This document shows positions 29,224 to 50,273 of a stretch of 64,000 nt of DNA, one piece after another. The position numbers and the translations under genes were made by a program. The notes under the pieces were generated by a model. That model saw only the letters and a program-made list of their open reading frames with translations. It ran no database searches and was not told the DNA's origin. The stretch comes from Psychrobacillus sp. FSL K6-2836 (GTDB lineage: Bacteria; Bacillota; Bacilli; Bacillales_A; Planococcaceae). Each line of letters starts with the position of its first letter. The first letter of the stretch is position 1. The DNA lies in the NCBI RefSeq assembly GCF_038003085.1, contig NZ_JBBOOM010000001.1, forward strand, positions 2,232,001 to 2,296,000. The letters are read 5' to 3'.

Positions 29224-29355
29224 TTAAATAAATGAATTTCCTATAGATGTTGGTCTTGGGGTTTCTTCTTCACCAATATGTTTTATGTTTGTTGTAAAGC
29301 TTAAAGCCAAGATGACAATGCTTGATAGGGTTAGTAATACAATTTTCTTTTTCAC
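29224..29355 (-). CDS. Candidate secreted signalling pre-peptide (NprX/PapR/Phr-like)
   Basis: A 43-aa peptide gene too short for usual gene callers. It starts at GTG 29355, 1 nt after the regulator's stop codon, with GGAGG 9 nt upstream inside the regulator's last codons. The product begins MKKKIVLLTLSSIVILALSF, a clear Sec signal (three Lys, then a hydrophobic core), and ends in a short polar tail ...EEETPRPTSIGNSFI. This size, export signal and position directly behind an HTH-TPR regulator is the hallmark of RNPP pheromone genes. The segment PRPTSIG resembles the NprX heptapeptide SKPDIVG in pattern (basic-Pro-x-x-Ile/Val-Gly). Which part is the mature signal is inference. Confidence 0.75.
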   Translation of the reverse strand: MKKKIVLLTLSSIVILALSFTTNIKHIGEEETPRPTSIGNSFI

Positions 29356-29356
29356 C

Positions 29357-30661
29357 TTATAAATCCTCCCATTTATTAATAAATTTTTGTTTAAATAGAA
29401 TCTGATTTGATTTTTGATAATATAAACTTGCAGCTTTAAATTTGTTTTGTTTAAAAAGGTAATCTGCTAACAAAATGGAATACTTTTGAACATGTCGTTC
29501 ATCCTGTTCTTGTTCAAAGTAATTAATAGCTTCCTTTAATATCATTTCAAGTTCGTCAGTTGAATTATGATAATTCTTATATATTTCTAAGTGAAAATAA
29601 TAAGAAATATATTCTTTGCTAGAGTTTTTCTCTCCCACTATTTTATCTAAGCCTTTCTTACACCATTCGAGGACCTGTTGATGATCGGACTGTTTGGAAT
29701 ACTCTTTTATAACAGATAGAATTGTTAATAAATACCCATCGGTGTTACAACCTTCTTCCTTAATTTTTAAACTAAGATTATAAAACTCGATTGCTTTTTC
29801 ATGACTCCCCTGGATTGCATATAATGAACCTAAATTTTGATAGATCACCTCCTCATAATTAATCAGTCTATAATCTATTGCCAGTTTCCCTGCTAAATTA
29901 TAGTTTTTTTCTGCTTCTTCGTATTTTCTCATTTTTTTATGTGCAATTCCTATAACGATGTAATTATCAATCGCTCTTTCAAATAAAAGATTGTCCTTAT
30001 AATAAAGTAATGATTTTGACGCATAATTTATAGCGTTAAAAAATTCATTACATTTAAAGTACGTTAAGCTTAGTACATTATTAAAATCTGCTATTTCCCA
30101 TTCTTCATTGATCCCATTATTTATGAATTTTAATGACTTTTCCAATTGATTTAATGCATCTTGATAATTTCCATTCAAATAATGATAAAGGCCAAGATTT
30201 AAATTAATAATAAACTTTTGTTTATCATCTATATCATCTTTTATTTTCGCAATTACGTTAAAGGTAGATTGGAGGATATCCTTCTCTTCATCCAGTATTA
30301 ACAAGAGACGAAACATATAAATGTGATAACTATAGTAATTATTAAGTTGTAAAAAATATAGCTTTTGGCTGGTGAATTTATGCAAGGATTCTCTTATAAA
30401 TTCCTTATCCCTTTTCAGAATTCCAGTTTTGTACAGTTCACATAACGAAACAATAACTTTGTTTTCTTTTTCATTGGATACTTGATTTATTTCTATATTT
30501 AGTTTTTTAAGTAAAAACGTTATTACTTCTTCACTTGGTACGGTTAAATTATTTTCTATTTTACTTAAGTAGGATGTAGAGCAGATTCCCTTGGCCAATG
30601 TTGTTTGTTTCATACTTTGGTTTAATCTTTCTGATTTTATTATATGACCTATACTACTCAT
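29357..30661 (-). CDS. RNPP-type HTH-TPR quorum-sensing regulator (NprR/PlcR-like)
   Basis: A 434-aa protein. An Xre-type HTH occupies residues about 5-60 (TLAKGICSTSYLSKIENN is the recognition region), followed by tetratricopeptide repeats from about 75 to the end (for example GLYHYLNGNYQDALNQLEKS, and LGSLYAIQGSHEKAIEFYNL). Length and plan match NprR (about 420 aa) rather than PlcR (285 aa). TPR concave surfaces of this family bind re-imported 5-10-residue peptides and switch DNA binding. ATG 30661 was chosen because AAGGGG lies 8 nt upstream; the in-frame GTG at 30670 overlaps that site. A perfect 9-bp inverted repeat lies 17 nt upstream. The peptide gene follows directly. Confidence 0.85.
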   Translation of the reverse strand: MSSIGHIIKSERLNQSMKQTTLAKGICSTSYLSKIENNLTVPSEEVITFLLKKLNIEINQVSNEKENKVIVSLCELYKTGILKRDKEFIRESLHKFTSQKLYFLQLNNYYSYHIYMFRLLLILDEEKDILQSTFNVIAKIKDDIDDKQKFIINLNLGLYHYLNGNYQDALNQLEKSLKFINNGINEEWEIADFNNVLSLTYFKCNEFFNAINYASKSLLYYKDNLLFERAIDNYIVIGIAHKKMRKYEEAEKNYNLAGKLAIDYRLINYEEVIYQNLGSLYAIQGSHEKAIEFYNLSLKIKEEGCNTDGYLLTILSVIKEYSKQSDHQQVLEWCKKGLDKIVGEKNSSKEYISYYFHLEIYKNYHNSTDELEMILKEAINYFEQEQDERHVQKYSILLADYLFKQNKFKAASLYYQKSNQILFKQKFINKWEDL

Positions 30662-30677
30662 TTTCTTCACCCCTTAT

Positions 30678-30698
30678 GAATTAGTAATGTACTAATTC
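30678..30698 (-). promoter_or_regulatory. Perfect inverted repeat before the RNPP regulator, candidate operator
   Basis: GAATTAGTA-N3-TACTAATTC, a 21-bp perfect palindrome with 3-nt centre, 17-37 nt upstream of the regulator start. Position and symmetry suit binding by a dimeric Xre protein, most simply the regulator itself. Confidence 0.5.
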
Positions 30699-31111
30699 TT
30701 GAAAAAAGCTAAATACCCTTTTTCAATCGTTCGACTCAAAATGACTAATGCGTTGTAGAAAAACATAGAAAGTGGTAGAAGATTGTCGAATATAGGTAGT
30801 ATAATTATCCGAATTTTATTATAAAATATTAAAATTTCATCATATTATGAAATTCGTTTGAGTTAGGTATTAATAGTCTAAGGACATAAAGCATATTTCC
30901 CAACTTATAATTATTCTAAAAATGATAAAAATTTAGTATAATATAATAAATATTAAATAATTTATACAAAGGTAATTTTAAAATTAAGTAGAAGTGTGAT
31001 TTTCTATTTTAGGGACAAGTCAGTCAAAAGATTATAGTTATTTAATTGGTTTTACTCAACAGGTATATCGCTGCTTGTGGAATGGTAAAAACTAGGGAAA
31101 GGGGGATACTC
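30699..31111. other. AT-rich intergenic region between divergent genes
   Basis: No gene seen. It must hold the promoters for the RNPP regulator (leftward) and the YvrJ gene (rightward). Several TATAAT-like strings occur, for example near 30799 and 30939, so no single promoter can be picked. Confidence 0.35.
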
Positions 31112-31276
31112 ATGATTGGGGAGGAAAATATTATACAATTAATTGGAAACTTCGGATTTCCCATTGTAGTCACTATTTATTTGTTGCATCGATTTGAAAA
31201 TAAAATAGACTCTCTTGAAAATACCATTCACAATATAGCAAATGTTGTTAACAATAGTATAGAAAAAAGAAAGTGA
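31112..31276 (+). CDS. YvrJ family small membrane protein
   Basis: A 54-aa protein: one hydrophobic segment (NFGFPIVVTIYLLHRFENKI, residues about 12-31), then a charged amphipathic helix. This is the YvrJ pattern. ATG 31112 follows AAAGGGGG by 7 nt. In Bacillus subtilis yvrJ sits near the SigO system; nothing of that is here. Function unknown. It lies next to the RNPP pair and could be a target, which is speculation. Confidence 0.7.
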   Translation: MIGEENIIQLIGNFGFPIVVTIYLLHRFENKIDSLENTIHNIANVVNNSIEKRK

Positions 31277-31403
31277 CTTGTAACACAGATGAAACTGATG
31301 TCCTGTTGATAATATAAATTGTTAAAGACGAAACTGCACTTTTGGAAGTTAAGCTTATTTTCACTTTGGATTCACGATTTTCTTTAATGAAGATGAAAGA
31401 AGT

Positions 31404-33086: not shown

Positions 33087-33121
33087 ATGAAACATAATTG
33101 AATACAGCCTCACTTAATATA

Positions 33122-33301
33122 GTGAGGTAGAGGCGCGATATTTAACAGTCCTTAGTGGAGTTTGAGAAGCTATGATTCTATGGAGAAGGAAATATCGCCG
33201 AAGTTTGTAATATTGCTCGGTATTACTTGCTGGGTCTGCAGTTAATAATTGCAGGACTGTCCACTATAAACATCCCAGTTTATAATGGTGTGCTATCTCA
33301 T
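33122..33301 (+). ncRNA. Lysine riboswitch (L-box)
   Basis: The L-box core is clear: GTGAGGTAGAGGCGCGATA at the 5' side, GAGAAGGAAATATCGCCGAAG in two parts, TTGCTGGGTCTGC, and GGACTGTCCACT near the 3' side. P1 forms between GTGAGGTAG (33122-33130) and CTATCTCAT (33293-33301). A terminator follows at 33342. Known L-boxes turn off lysine synthesis or uptake genes when lysine is bound, so the downstream transporter is predicted to import lysine. Confidence 0.92.
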
Positions 33302-33341
33302 TTGGGAAAAGTAGAGGATTTAGGGCAACTATACATATTGC

Positions 33342-40046: not shown

Positions 40047-40093
40047 TTTTTCACTCCTAACTTAATAAATGTGCAAGCGTCTATGCTTGGGAA

Positions 40094-40192
40094 GTCAGTC
40101 TAAGTTCGCGACATCGTGGTGCTCCTGCGCAAAGCTCGTCGCAAAATAAAAAAACATTTCGCAACGACTGACTGACCTACATCCTGTGGGCC
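40094..40192 (-). repeat. 100-bp intergenic repeat, copy 2, inside the mtnW leader
   Basis: Read on the minus strand it matches 36792-36892 closely: GGCCCACAGGATGTAGGTCA, AGTCGTTGCGAAAT, TTTTATTTTGCGACGAGC, GCACCACGATGTCGCGAACT, TAGACTGAC. It lies between the S-box terminator and the mtnW start, so it is transcribed as part of the mtnW 5' leader. Neighbouring DNA (GAGCGCTTGCGCTTTTC and CAGCTCCTCGTGCCGCTTC on the minus strand) is also of a kind I recall as repeated in Bacillales. Confidence 0.8.
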
Positions 40193-40338: not shown

Positions 40339-40354
40339 AATAGTTTAACAACTT

Positions 40355-40455
40355 CTTATTTCTCAGCCTGTTGGCTGCAAGAATTAGCACCGTGTTCAAA
40401 ATTGAATCGGTTGCCGGGTATCATAGGGCTTGTCCCTCCACCTGCTCTAAATAAG
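40355..40455 (-). ncRNA. SAM-I riboswitch (S-box) upstream of mtnWXBD
   Basis: Minus strand: CTTATTTAGAGCAGGTGGAG, GGACAAGCCCTATGATACCC, GGCAACCGATTCAATTTTGA, ACACGGTGCTAATTCTTGC, then GCTGAGAAATAAG closing P1 with CTTATTT. The AGAG..GAGGGA, GATG-like (GATACCCGGCAACC) and GGTGCTAATTC blocks are diagnostic. SAM binding favours termination, so the operon is on when SAM is low. Confidence 0.93.
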
Positions 40456-40491
40456 AAAATATTCAGTTGAATTATTTAATAAATTACATTG

Positions 40492-40615: not shown

Positions 40616-40772
40616 CTCTTATCAAGAGCAGGCAGAGGGATAATGGCCCGATGACGCCCAGCAACCGACCGTAATACCGTTGTGAGACGGGGCGCTTTAT
40701 GCGCCGGAATGTAAAATTCCGTAAGGCACGGTGCTAATTCCATCAGAAAGTTTACTTTCTGAGAGATAAGAG
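40616..40772 (+). ncRNA. SAM-I riboswitch (S-box) upstream of mtnKA
   Basis: CTCTTATCAAGAGCAGGCAG, AGGGATAATGGCCCGATGAC, GCCCAGCAACCGACC, an extended variable arm with GGGGCGC/GCGCC, then AAGGCACGGTGCTAATTCC and GAGAGATAAGAG. P1 pairs CTCTTATC (40616-40623) with GATAAGAG (40765-40772). A terminator follows at 40795. It is longer than its divergent twin because of the added P3/P4 hairpin arm. Confidence 0.95.
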
Positions 40773-49685: not shown

Positions 49686-50273
49686 TTTTGATAACACCCC
49701 ATTTTCTCAAATAAAGTGAAGCTTGTTTATATAATGCAGTATCCTTCTGCAATCCATTATACCCAGTAAATGTTCTTTTGTATCATCTACACATTATACT
49801 CTTTAAGAATCAATTGTAAATAAAAGACCGCTTATTGTCACTAATAAAACAAGTATTAATACATTATTTAACTATTTTGAAAGGGCGTATTTATTAGAAT
49901 TTAAGAACTTTATTTAATTAGGTAAATTTAAGCCTATAAATATATACAAATGTTGAATGAATGTACGTGTAGCAGAGGCTATCCAAACTTATTATTTAGC
50001 AACCTCGTTTTTGGTAAGATAGGAAAGTATATAAAATGACCTGTGGATATTGGATCTATGGGAATTTAAAGAATGAATAATATAGCTGATTTCCATTTCA
50101 GGCAAAGGAACAAAGGCTAAGAGTGCTACAAACGTGGTTGCAACTCCTTCGTGATCAACATCTTGTTGGTCTCCGAGATAGTGAAAACCATCTGTAATCG
50201 CAGCTGAATTAGTAAGTATTTGCCTCATAAAGAAGCGAAATATAGAACGAAATTGCATATCCGTCAGCTTCCT
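49686..50273. other. Intergenic and repeat-derived DNA
   Basis: It holds the tatC promoter region and a repeat-related stretch. An 88-codon minus-strand frame (49992-50258) has a protein-like middle (AAITDGFHYLGDQQDVDHEG) but no family or Shine-Dalgarno site that I can support, and its right end lies in DNA shared with 36739-36788. It may be a relic of a gene carried with the repeat. Confidence 0.35.

Follow-up and report, generated by a model that had tools for sequence, protein, structure and literature searches.

A candidate RRNPP-type receptor and pre-pheromone pair of Psychrobacillus that faces a conserved YvrJ gene

The window, by which we mean the whole 64,000-nucleotide stretch of Psychrobacillus sp. 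FSL K6-2836 DNA that was analyzed, contains a regulator gene (R1, 29357-30661, minus strand) whose product of 434 amino acids, counted from an ATG, is a candidate cytoplasmic pheromone receptor; a GTG three codons upstream would extend the open reading frame (ORF) to 437 amino acids. R1 matched the Pfam model HTH_3 at residues 8-58 (E = 3.5e-8) along with several tetratricopeptide repeat (TPR) models, in keeping with an earlier sequence-only reading, which had described a 434-residue regulator with an Xre-type helix-turn-helix (HTH) and TPRs. One base past the R1 stop codon begins a frame of 43 codons with a GTG start (P1, 29224-29355, minus strand), which encodes a candidate pre-pheromone with a Sec-like signal and a polar tail, the Sec-like character of this and similar frames being judged from hydrophobicity and charge. 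The GGAGG Shine-Dalgarno site of P1 lies within the end of R1 (29365-29369, minus strand), 9 nt before the GTG. The frame, its spacing, and its ribosome-binding site are thus where the sequence-only reading had placed them, and the peptide letters it gave were correct; it gave no strand, which is minus for both genes. The PRPTSIG codons of P1 (29239-29259, minus strand) are likeliest to contain the mature signal, whose ends we infer. P1 itself matched no model in Pfam, NCBIfam, or PHROGs at E-values up to 1.

Divergent from R1 lies a gene for a small YvrJ-family protein of 54 amino acids (31112-31276, plus strand), which matched PF12841 at 3.4e-18 and scored 65.4 bits against the curated cut-off of 29.5 bits. 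Elsewhere in the window, Rfam models identified a lysine riboswitch (33120-33303) ahead of a gene that resembles those for ABC transporters, one SAM riboswitch on each strand (40353-40457 and 40616-40772), and two Bacillaceae-1 RNAs (40084-40190 and 50101-50169).

Orthologs of R1 were present in 18 of the 19 Psychrobacillus genomes, the window's own included, at 59-100% identity, and one of these 18 genomes carried an extra copy that was 53% identical (L024). At every one of the 18 R1 loci, a P1 frame of 38-45 amino acids followed the receptor gene at a distance of 0 or 1 nt, with a Shine-Dalgarno site, MKK or MKR as its first three residues, and a hydrophobic stretch; three of these frames could also be read in a longer form, from an ATG further upstream. 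Invariant in the alignment of the 18 peptides were M1, K2, and all five fixed letters of ExExPRxT, such that the first P, the R, and the T of PRPTSIG were unchanged throughout with two glutamates preceding them; the signal part varied over much of its length, as did the final residues. The scan of relatives and the conservation check that the sequence-only reading had proposed therefore found the small frame present and open at all genus orthologs, with a core that is better kept than the signal part. The uncorrected pN/pS of P1 was 0.31 among the seven species of the clade that includes the window (clade A), 0.52 among the other 11, and 0.50 among all 18.

Since short ORFs are common and no library model matched P1, P1 could be a chance ORF behind an ordinary Xre-TPR regulator. 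We accordingly counted peptide frames behind 143 distinct full-length receptor-family ORFs and behind a control set of 357 other distinct ORFs of at least 150 codons. The strict criterion called for a Shine-Dalgarno site, a length of 35-100 amino acids, two or more K/R among residues 1-6, a hydrophobic stretch, and a start between -10 and +25 nt from the stop codon; the loose criterion dispensed with the Shine-Dalgarno site. Strictly defined frames were found behind 92 of the 143 receptor-family ORFs vs. 0 of the 357 others, and loosely defined frames behind 99 of 143 vs. 18 of 357. Both criteria were set after the peptides had been seen, and the receptors were chosen by likeness to R1 and to its paralog R2 (see below), so the contrast rather than the exact figures is what counts. 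Although the 18 control ORFs show that loosely defined frames do arise behind other genes, the presence of the frame at 18 of 18 R1 orthologs down to 59% identity, its Shine-Dalgarno site, the purifying selection upon it, and the empty strict control set make a chance ORF exceedingly improbable, and P1 is most probably a genuine coding frame.

In 51 of the 143 receptor-family ORFs the strict criterion found no peptide frame, and in 44 the loose criterion found none, so such receptors can evidently occur with no peptide gene next to them. Seven receptors failed the strict criterion and passed the loose one (L044, L068, L115, L118, L126, L127, and L154). The 17 loci fetched from genus g34 of family f16, which is outside the window's family, all failed the strict criterion, and 16 of them failed the loose one; these loci (L144-L159 and L161) are class-level receptor relatives with E-values of about 1e-71 to 1e-95. 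Eleven receptors (7 of 7 fetched from genus g7, 3 of 3 from g19, and 1 of 6 from g14) had a receiver-like gene upstream, as judged by weak tblastn matches, and no Sec-like frame preceded by a Shine-Dalgarno site was found behind these eleven (L065, L074, L075, L090, L105-L108, L112, L113, and L116). In genus g12, tandem receptors lie ~0.7 kb apart (L037-L043 with L080, L070, L087, L082, L054, L056, and L089), and only the downstream receptor was followed by a frame that passed the peptide criteria.

A second pair of the same build was found within the genus. R2, a paralog 28-32% identical to R1, was present in 12 of the 19 Psychrobacillus genomes; the frame behind it (P2) was open in 11 of these 12, and all 11 open frames had KPxIT in the tail. 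In genome G009 (L026, receptor at G009:C1:3716609-3717889), P2 carried an IQDKP[DE]ITS-type unit repeated five times in tandem, and in genome G001 (L025) an in-frame TAG stop fell within the signal part with the tail retained. Behind a distant receptor (L125, G002:C11) stood a 63-amino acid propeptide frame with three copies of IPIHPPIG, and other genera of the window's family had similarly built peptides with different tails beside members of the receptor family. Propeptides with repeated mature peptides are known among RRNPP systems (PMC9765709 and PMC11343458). The repeated cores of P2 suggest by analogy that PRPTSI is most likely the heart of mature P1, the ends of which would lie around it.

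An alternative reading of the peptide is that P1 acts by itself, as a membrane or secreted product such as a cell-envelope or antimicrobial peptide, and is merely regulated by R1 with no peptide-receptor signaling. The hydrophobic signal part could serve as a membrane anchor, and the 51 family members that lack a strictly defined frame would be compatible with such a role. However, the best-kept stretch of P1 is the short polar core and not the hydrophobic part, the five tandem P2 cores and the three IPIHPPIG copies fit a processed pheromone, and the kinship of R1 is to RRNPP receptors, as detailed below. A self-acting P1 thus appears improbable.

Two further features of the R2 loci may be recorded here. 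Upstream of R2 (L002 and L025-L034), conserved inverted half-sites, GAAAG and CTTTC, lie ~40 nt apart and form a candidate long-spaced operator. In addition, two genes near R2 (L167:8591-12519) resemble, as judged from their sequence, the Pnkp/Hen1 RNA-repair pair.

Searches of the PDB placed R1 and R2 among the RRNPP receptors. The best natural proteins matched by a profile of R1 and R2 were Rap3T (1.2e-20), RapH (2.2e-17), NprR (2.9e-15), and PlcR (6.3e-10), with designed TPR proteins outscoring these natural matches, while the R1 sequence alone matched RapH (5.2e-6) and did not retrieve NprR at E-values up to 1. Profile positions 77-421 aligned to residues 20-357 of NprR, which is nearly all of its nine-TPR chain (4gpk, 2.9e-15), with Rap chains scoring higher than NprR, and the PlcR alignment was limited to residues 3-218. 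The profile therefore lies inside the RRNPP class, and the interpretation given in the sequence-only reading is supported. An origin from phage was set aside because a search of 50,697 phage records with a cut-off of 1e-5 gave no match to R1, although PHROG 5208 matched its TPR part at 7.8e-24.

The sequence-only reading had gone further and called the regulator NprR-type, which holds for its architecture. In a quick, midpoint-rooted tree of 77 receptors that carried a long-branch warning and had no B. cereus NprR among its rows, the R1 group (with L036, support 97) and the R2 group (support 100) were separate, and both fell inside a 66-row set (support 99) made up of the rows of family f1 and two rows of family f16. 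Family f1, the window's own, is presumably the Planococcaceae. Outside this set and apart from R1 fell L142, a protein encoded on a plasmid of Priestia koreensis FS-1, which sits on a long branch and was the one outside row tested as nearest to NprR, the other four outside rows being L143, L160, L162, and L163. The best PDB match of L142 was NprR (1.1e-12), and its adjoining peptide is similar in build to P1, with the tail EEEFPEPT and the end SASEEEFPEPTVAQVLI, which is much like that of P1. Two plasmid systems of P. koreensis FS-1 have been classed as NprR-NprX (PMC10075063), and L142 presumably belongs to one of them.

NprR is reported to contact Spo0F through D107, Y118, E188, and Y223 (PMC4970707). 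At these positions R1 has K, M, I, and L, as read by hand in a two-step alignment through L142, so nothing here points to R1 acting as a phosphatase in the manner of Rap. The proposed likeness of PRPTSIG to the NprX heptapeptide SKPDIVG also turned out to be weak, with KP[DE]IT of the paralog being closer. Given the single-sequence search, the Spo0F-contact residues, and a core other than SKPDIVG, we did not grant R1 membership of NprR. By sequence comparison, we place R1-P1 in the RRNPP group as a new pair, kin to Rap, NprR, and PlcR, that we do not assign to NprR.

We then considered which genes R1 might control. The sequence-only reading had left the targets unknown and had listed YvrJ among the only neighbors; of these, YvrJ is the neighbor common to all R1 loci and the leading target candidate, with the gene facing R1 in 18 of 18 R1-bearing genomes. 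The single genome of the genus that lacks R1 had no YvrJ match at E = 0.01 in a protein search or at 1e-4 with the Pfam model. YvrJ-family proteins exceeded the Pfam cut-off in 253 of 261 genomes of the window's family, so it is the position of the gene and not its presence that is special. The outer neighbors of the R1 loci varied while YvrJ stayed, although the flanks viewed extended to only 1.5 kb for most loci. The glnKL genes, the permease, and the transporter with the lysine riboswitch were set aside as targets because none of them stood beside R1 in the other 11 species (flanks of 5 kb for two and ~1.5 kb for the rest). Shared descent within a single genus could account in part for the linkage to YvrJ, but the outer neighbors differ and R1 identity falls to 59%.

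The distance between R1 and YvrJ was 376-456 nt in seven genomes and 929-1138 nt in 11. In all 11 wide-gap genomes, a sigma-like gene divergent from R1 lay between R1 and YvrJ (the one protein tested, from L004, matched Sigma70_r4 at 4.3e-11), and an RsoA-like match followed YvrJ, with a length of 74 amino acids in L004 and L005. The NCBIfam RsoA model matched the L005 protein at 1.1e-5 with 25.3 bits, below its curated cut-off of 100 bits. The row that faces R1 in 11 of the 18 genomes, sigma-like gene, yvrJ, and RsoA-like gene, resembles in its make-up a two-subunit sigma factor. No such module was seen adjacent to other family receptors outside Psychrobacillus when the matches listed were inspected by eye.

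In the seven genomes of clade A, the window's included, YvrJ was kept and both sigma genes were missing from the R1 locus. The tree recovered clade A as one group (support 99) and the other 11 as two groups whose order relative to clade A was not fixed. Short remnants similar to the beginning of the RsoA-like gene in the other species follow YvrJ in several of the seven clade A species, and that of the window reads DETDVLLII-stop (31288-31317, plus strand). It is therefore more likely that clade A lost the sigma-like and RsoA-like genes from the locus and kept YvrJ than that the other species gained them late.

Three of the seven clade A species had a sigma/YvrJ pair elsewhere in the genome. 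The second module of the window's genome (L164:2042-4063, G000:C1:478500-487500) has a YvrJ frame that runs on into an RsoA-like part, behind which lies a gene with Amidase_3 and LysM domains. In G016 (L165) the module has the same order, with YvrJ and the RsoA-like gene separate and an amidase-like ORF in addition. These amidase neighbors hint at a possible cell-wall role for YvrJ.

Candidate regulatory sites were found in the gap between the divergent R1 and YvrJ genes (30662-31111). Just upstream of the R1 ribosome-binding site lies an inverted repeat, GAATTAGTA-N3-TACTAATTC (30678-30698, no strand assigned), which is a candidate operator. All seven clade A genomes have this 21-base repeat, at a distance of 16 bases from the R1 start codon and with 20 of its 21 columns invariant, whereas it occurs in 0 of the 11 other R1 loci; with the candidate operator missing at 11 of the 18 loci, no common R1-binding site is established, and we found no motif common to all 18. 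Conservation is equally high from the repeat down to the R1 start codon, with the best segment invariant in 21 of 21 columns, so the repeat may be no more than a piece of the R1 promoter and leader. In the alignment, a conserved TTTCCCAACTTAT block and a TATAAT (30937-30942) read towards YvrJ and mark a candidate YvrJ promoter region (30894-30942, plus strand).

The repeat occurs in one exact copy in the window's genome, with three further sites at two mismatches. A genome-wide R1 regulon based on it was abandoned because nine sites were found at up to three mismatches vs. seven for the reversed pattern, and four imperfect sites (L135-L138) lay inside ORFs in two cases and in intergenic regions without an evident link in the other two.

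RRNPP receptors often act away from their own locus. It is therefore conceivable, at rather less than even chances, that the quorum-sensing pair is real, that the YvrJ and sigma genes are bystanders, and that R1 controls distant genes or, as Rap and NprR do, a response-regulator protein. The failure to find an R1 site common to the 18 loci and the three imperfect copies of the repeat elsewhere in the genome are consistent with such distant action. The imperfect copies, however, barely exceed the reversed-pattern control, YvrJ is linked to R1 at 18 of 18 loci with varying outer neighbors, and R1 lacks the four residues, read by hand, that in NprR contact Spo0F. On balance, the arrangement of genes slightly favors the YvrJ and sigma genes as the R1 target.

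The pair, its conservation and kinship, the paralogous pair with its tandem cores, and the constant YvrJ neighbor are direct observations, and as a whole they are best explained if R1-P1 is a chromosomal RRNPP-type quorum-sensing pair, a reading that we hold with good confidence; that it switches YvrJ has, taken alone, little more than an even chance. P1 would probably share a transcript with R1, leave the cell through Sec, and be cut extracellularly to a short peptide centered on PRPTSI. Mature P1 would then re-enter by an oligopeptide permease and be bound in the TPR groove of R1, and this binding may alter the grip of R1 on DNA such that the divergent YvrJ gene is switched in one direction or the other. 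In 11 of the 18 species, R1 would switch YvrJ together with the SigO-like/RsoA-like two-subunit sigma factor, and the R1-P1 genes are probably also under the control of R1 itself. That the pheromone system directly controls the split sigma factor and YvrJ, with the window's lineage having lost the sigma genes so that the receptor drives YvrJ alone, is a tentative version of this scheme to which we give somewhat less than an even chance.

These observations add to Psychrobacillus one peptide-signaling pair (18 of 19 genomes) and a paralogous second (12 of 19). In the literature searched, no report linked Psychrobacillus to RRNPP systems, and a search on Psychrobacillus and quorum sensing returned nothing that looks related to such a pair. 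The genus is not named in the main texts of PMC9765709, PMC10075063, PMC12700828, and PMC11343458. Surveys have reported NprR in 21 genera (Felipe-Ruiz et al., PMC9765709) and 34 high-confidence clusters (Bernard et al., PMC10075063), and since the search covered main texts, the R1 and R2 proteins may already be included without a name in such survey lists. No assigned role for YvrJ was found in the literature searched, and a search on RsoA and quorum sensing yielded nothing evidently on RRNPP control of such a sigma factor. Clade A, with no sigma genes at the locus, offers a natural experiment, because control of YvrJ by R1 both in this clade and in the other species would mean that a quorum-sensing circuit has lost a sigma-factor step. 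YvrJ would then be the effector of the module, and its function, perhaps holin-like or related to the envelope, would be under cell-density control.

Among known systems, NprR-NprX of the B. cereus group shares with R1-P1 an N-terminal HTH, a long TPR part, and an adjacent gene for a small secreted propeptide, and differs in its mature peptide, SKPDIVG, compared with the P1 core PRPTS. In the Rap-Phr systems of Bacillus, the receptor gene is likewise followed by a Sec-type propeptide gene, and Rap3T and RapH were the best natural PDB matches of the R1/R2 profile. In contrast with R1, Rap proteins have no DNA-binding HTH domain (PMC9765709). PlcR-PapR, AloR-AloP, and AimR-AimP resemble R1-P1 as HTH and TPR receptors with adjacent propeptide genes (PMC9765709 and PMC12700828); PlcR, the one of these receptors compared here by profile, has a five-TPR fold (PMC12700828). 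The B. subtilis sigma factor SigO-RsoA transcribes yvrJ (PMC8103513). The genes that face R1 in the 11 species resemble this system in encoding a protein with sigma-70 region 4, a YvrJ protein, and a protein similar to RsoA, whereas in Psychrobacillus the RsoA-like match is below the cut-off and the genes face a candidate quorum-sensing pair. Finally, although the receptor clan, sigma factor, and organism are different and R1 is linked to its sigma-like gene by position only, the proposal for R1 parallels the streptococcal RRNPP receptor ComR and the alternative sigma factor SigX, in that an RRNPP receptor would switch an alternative sigma factor.
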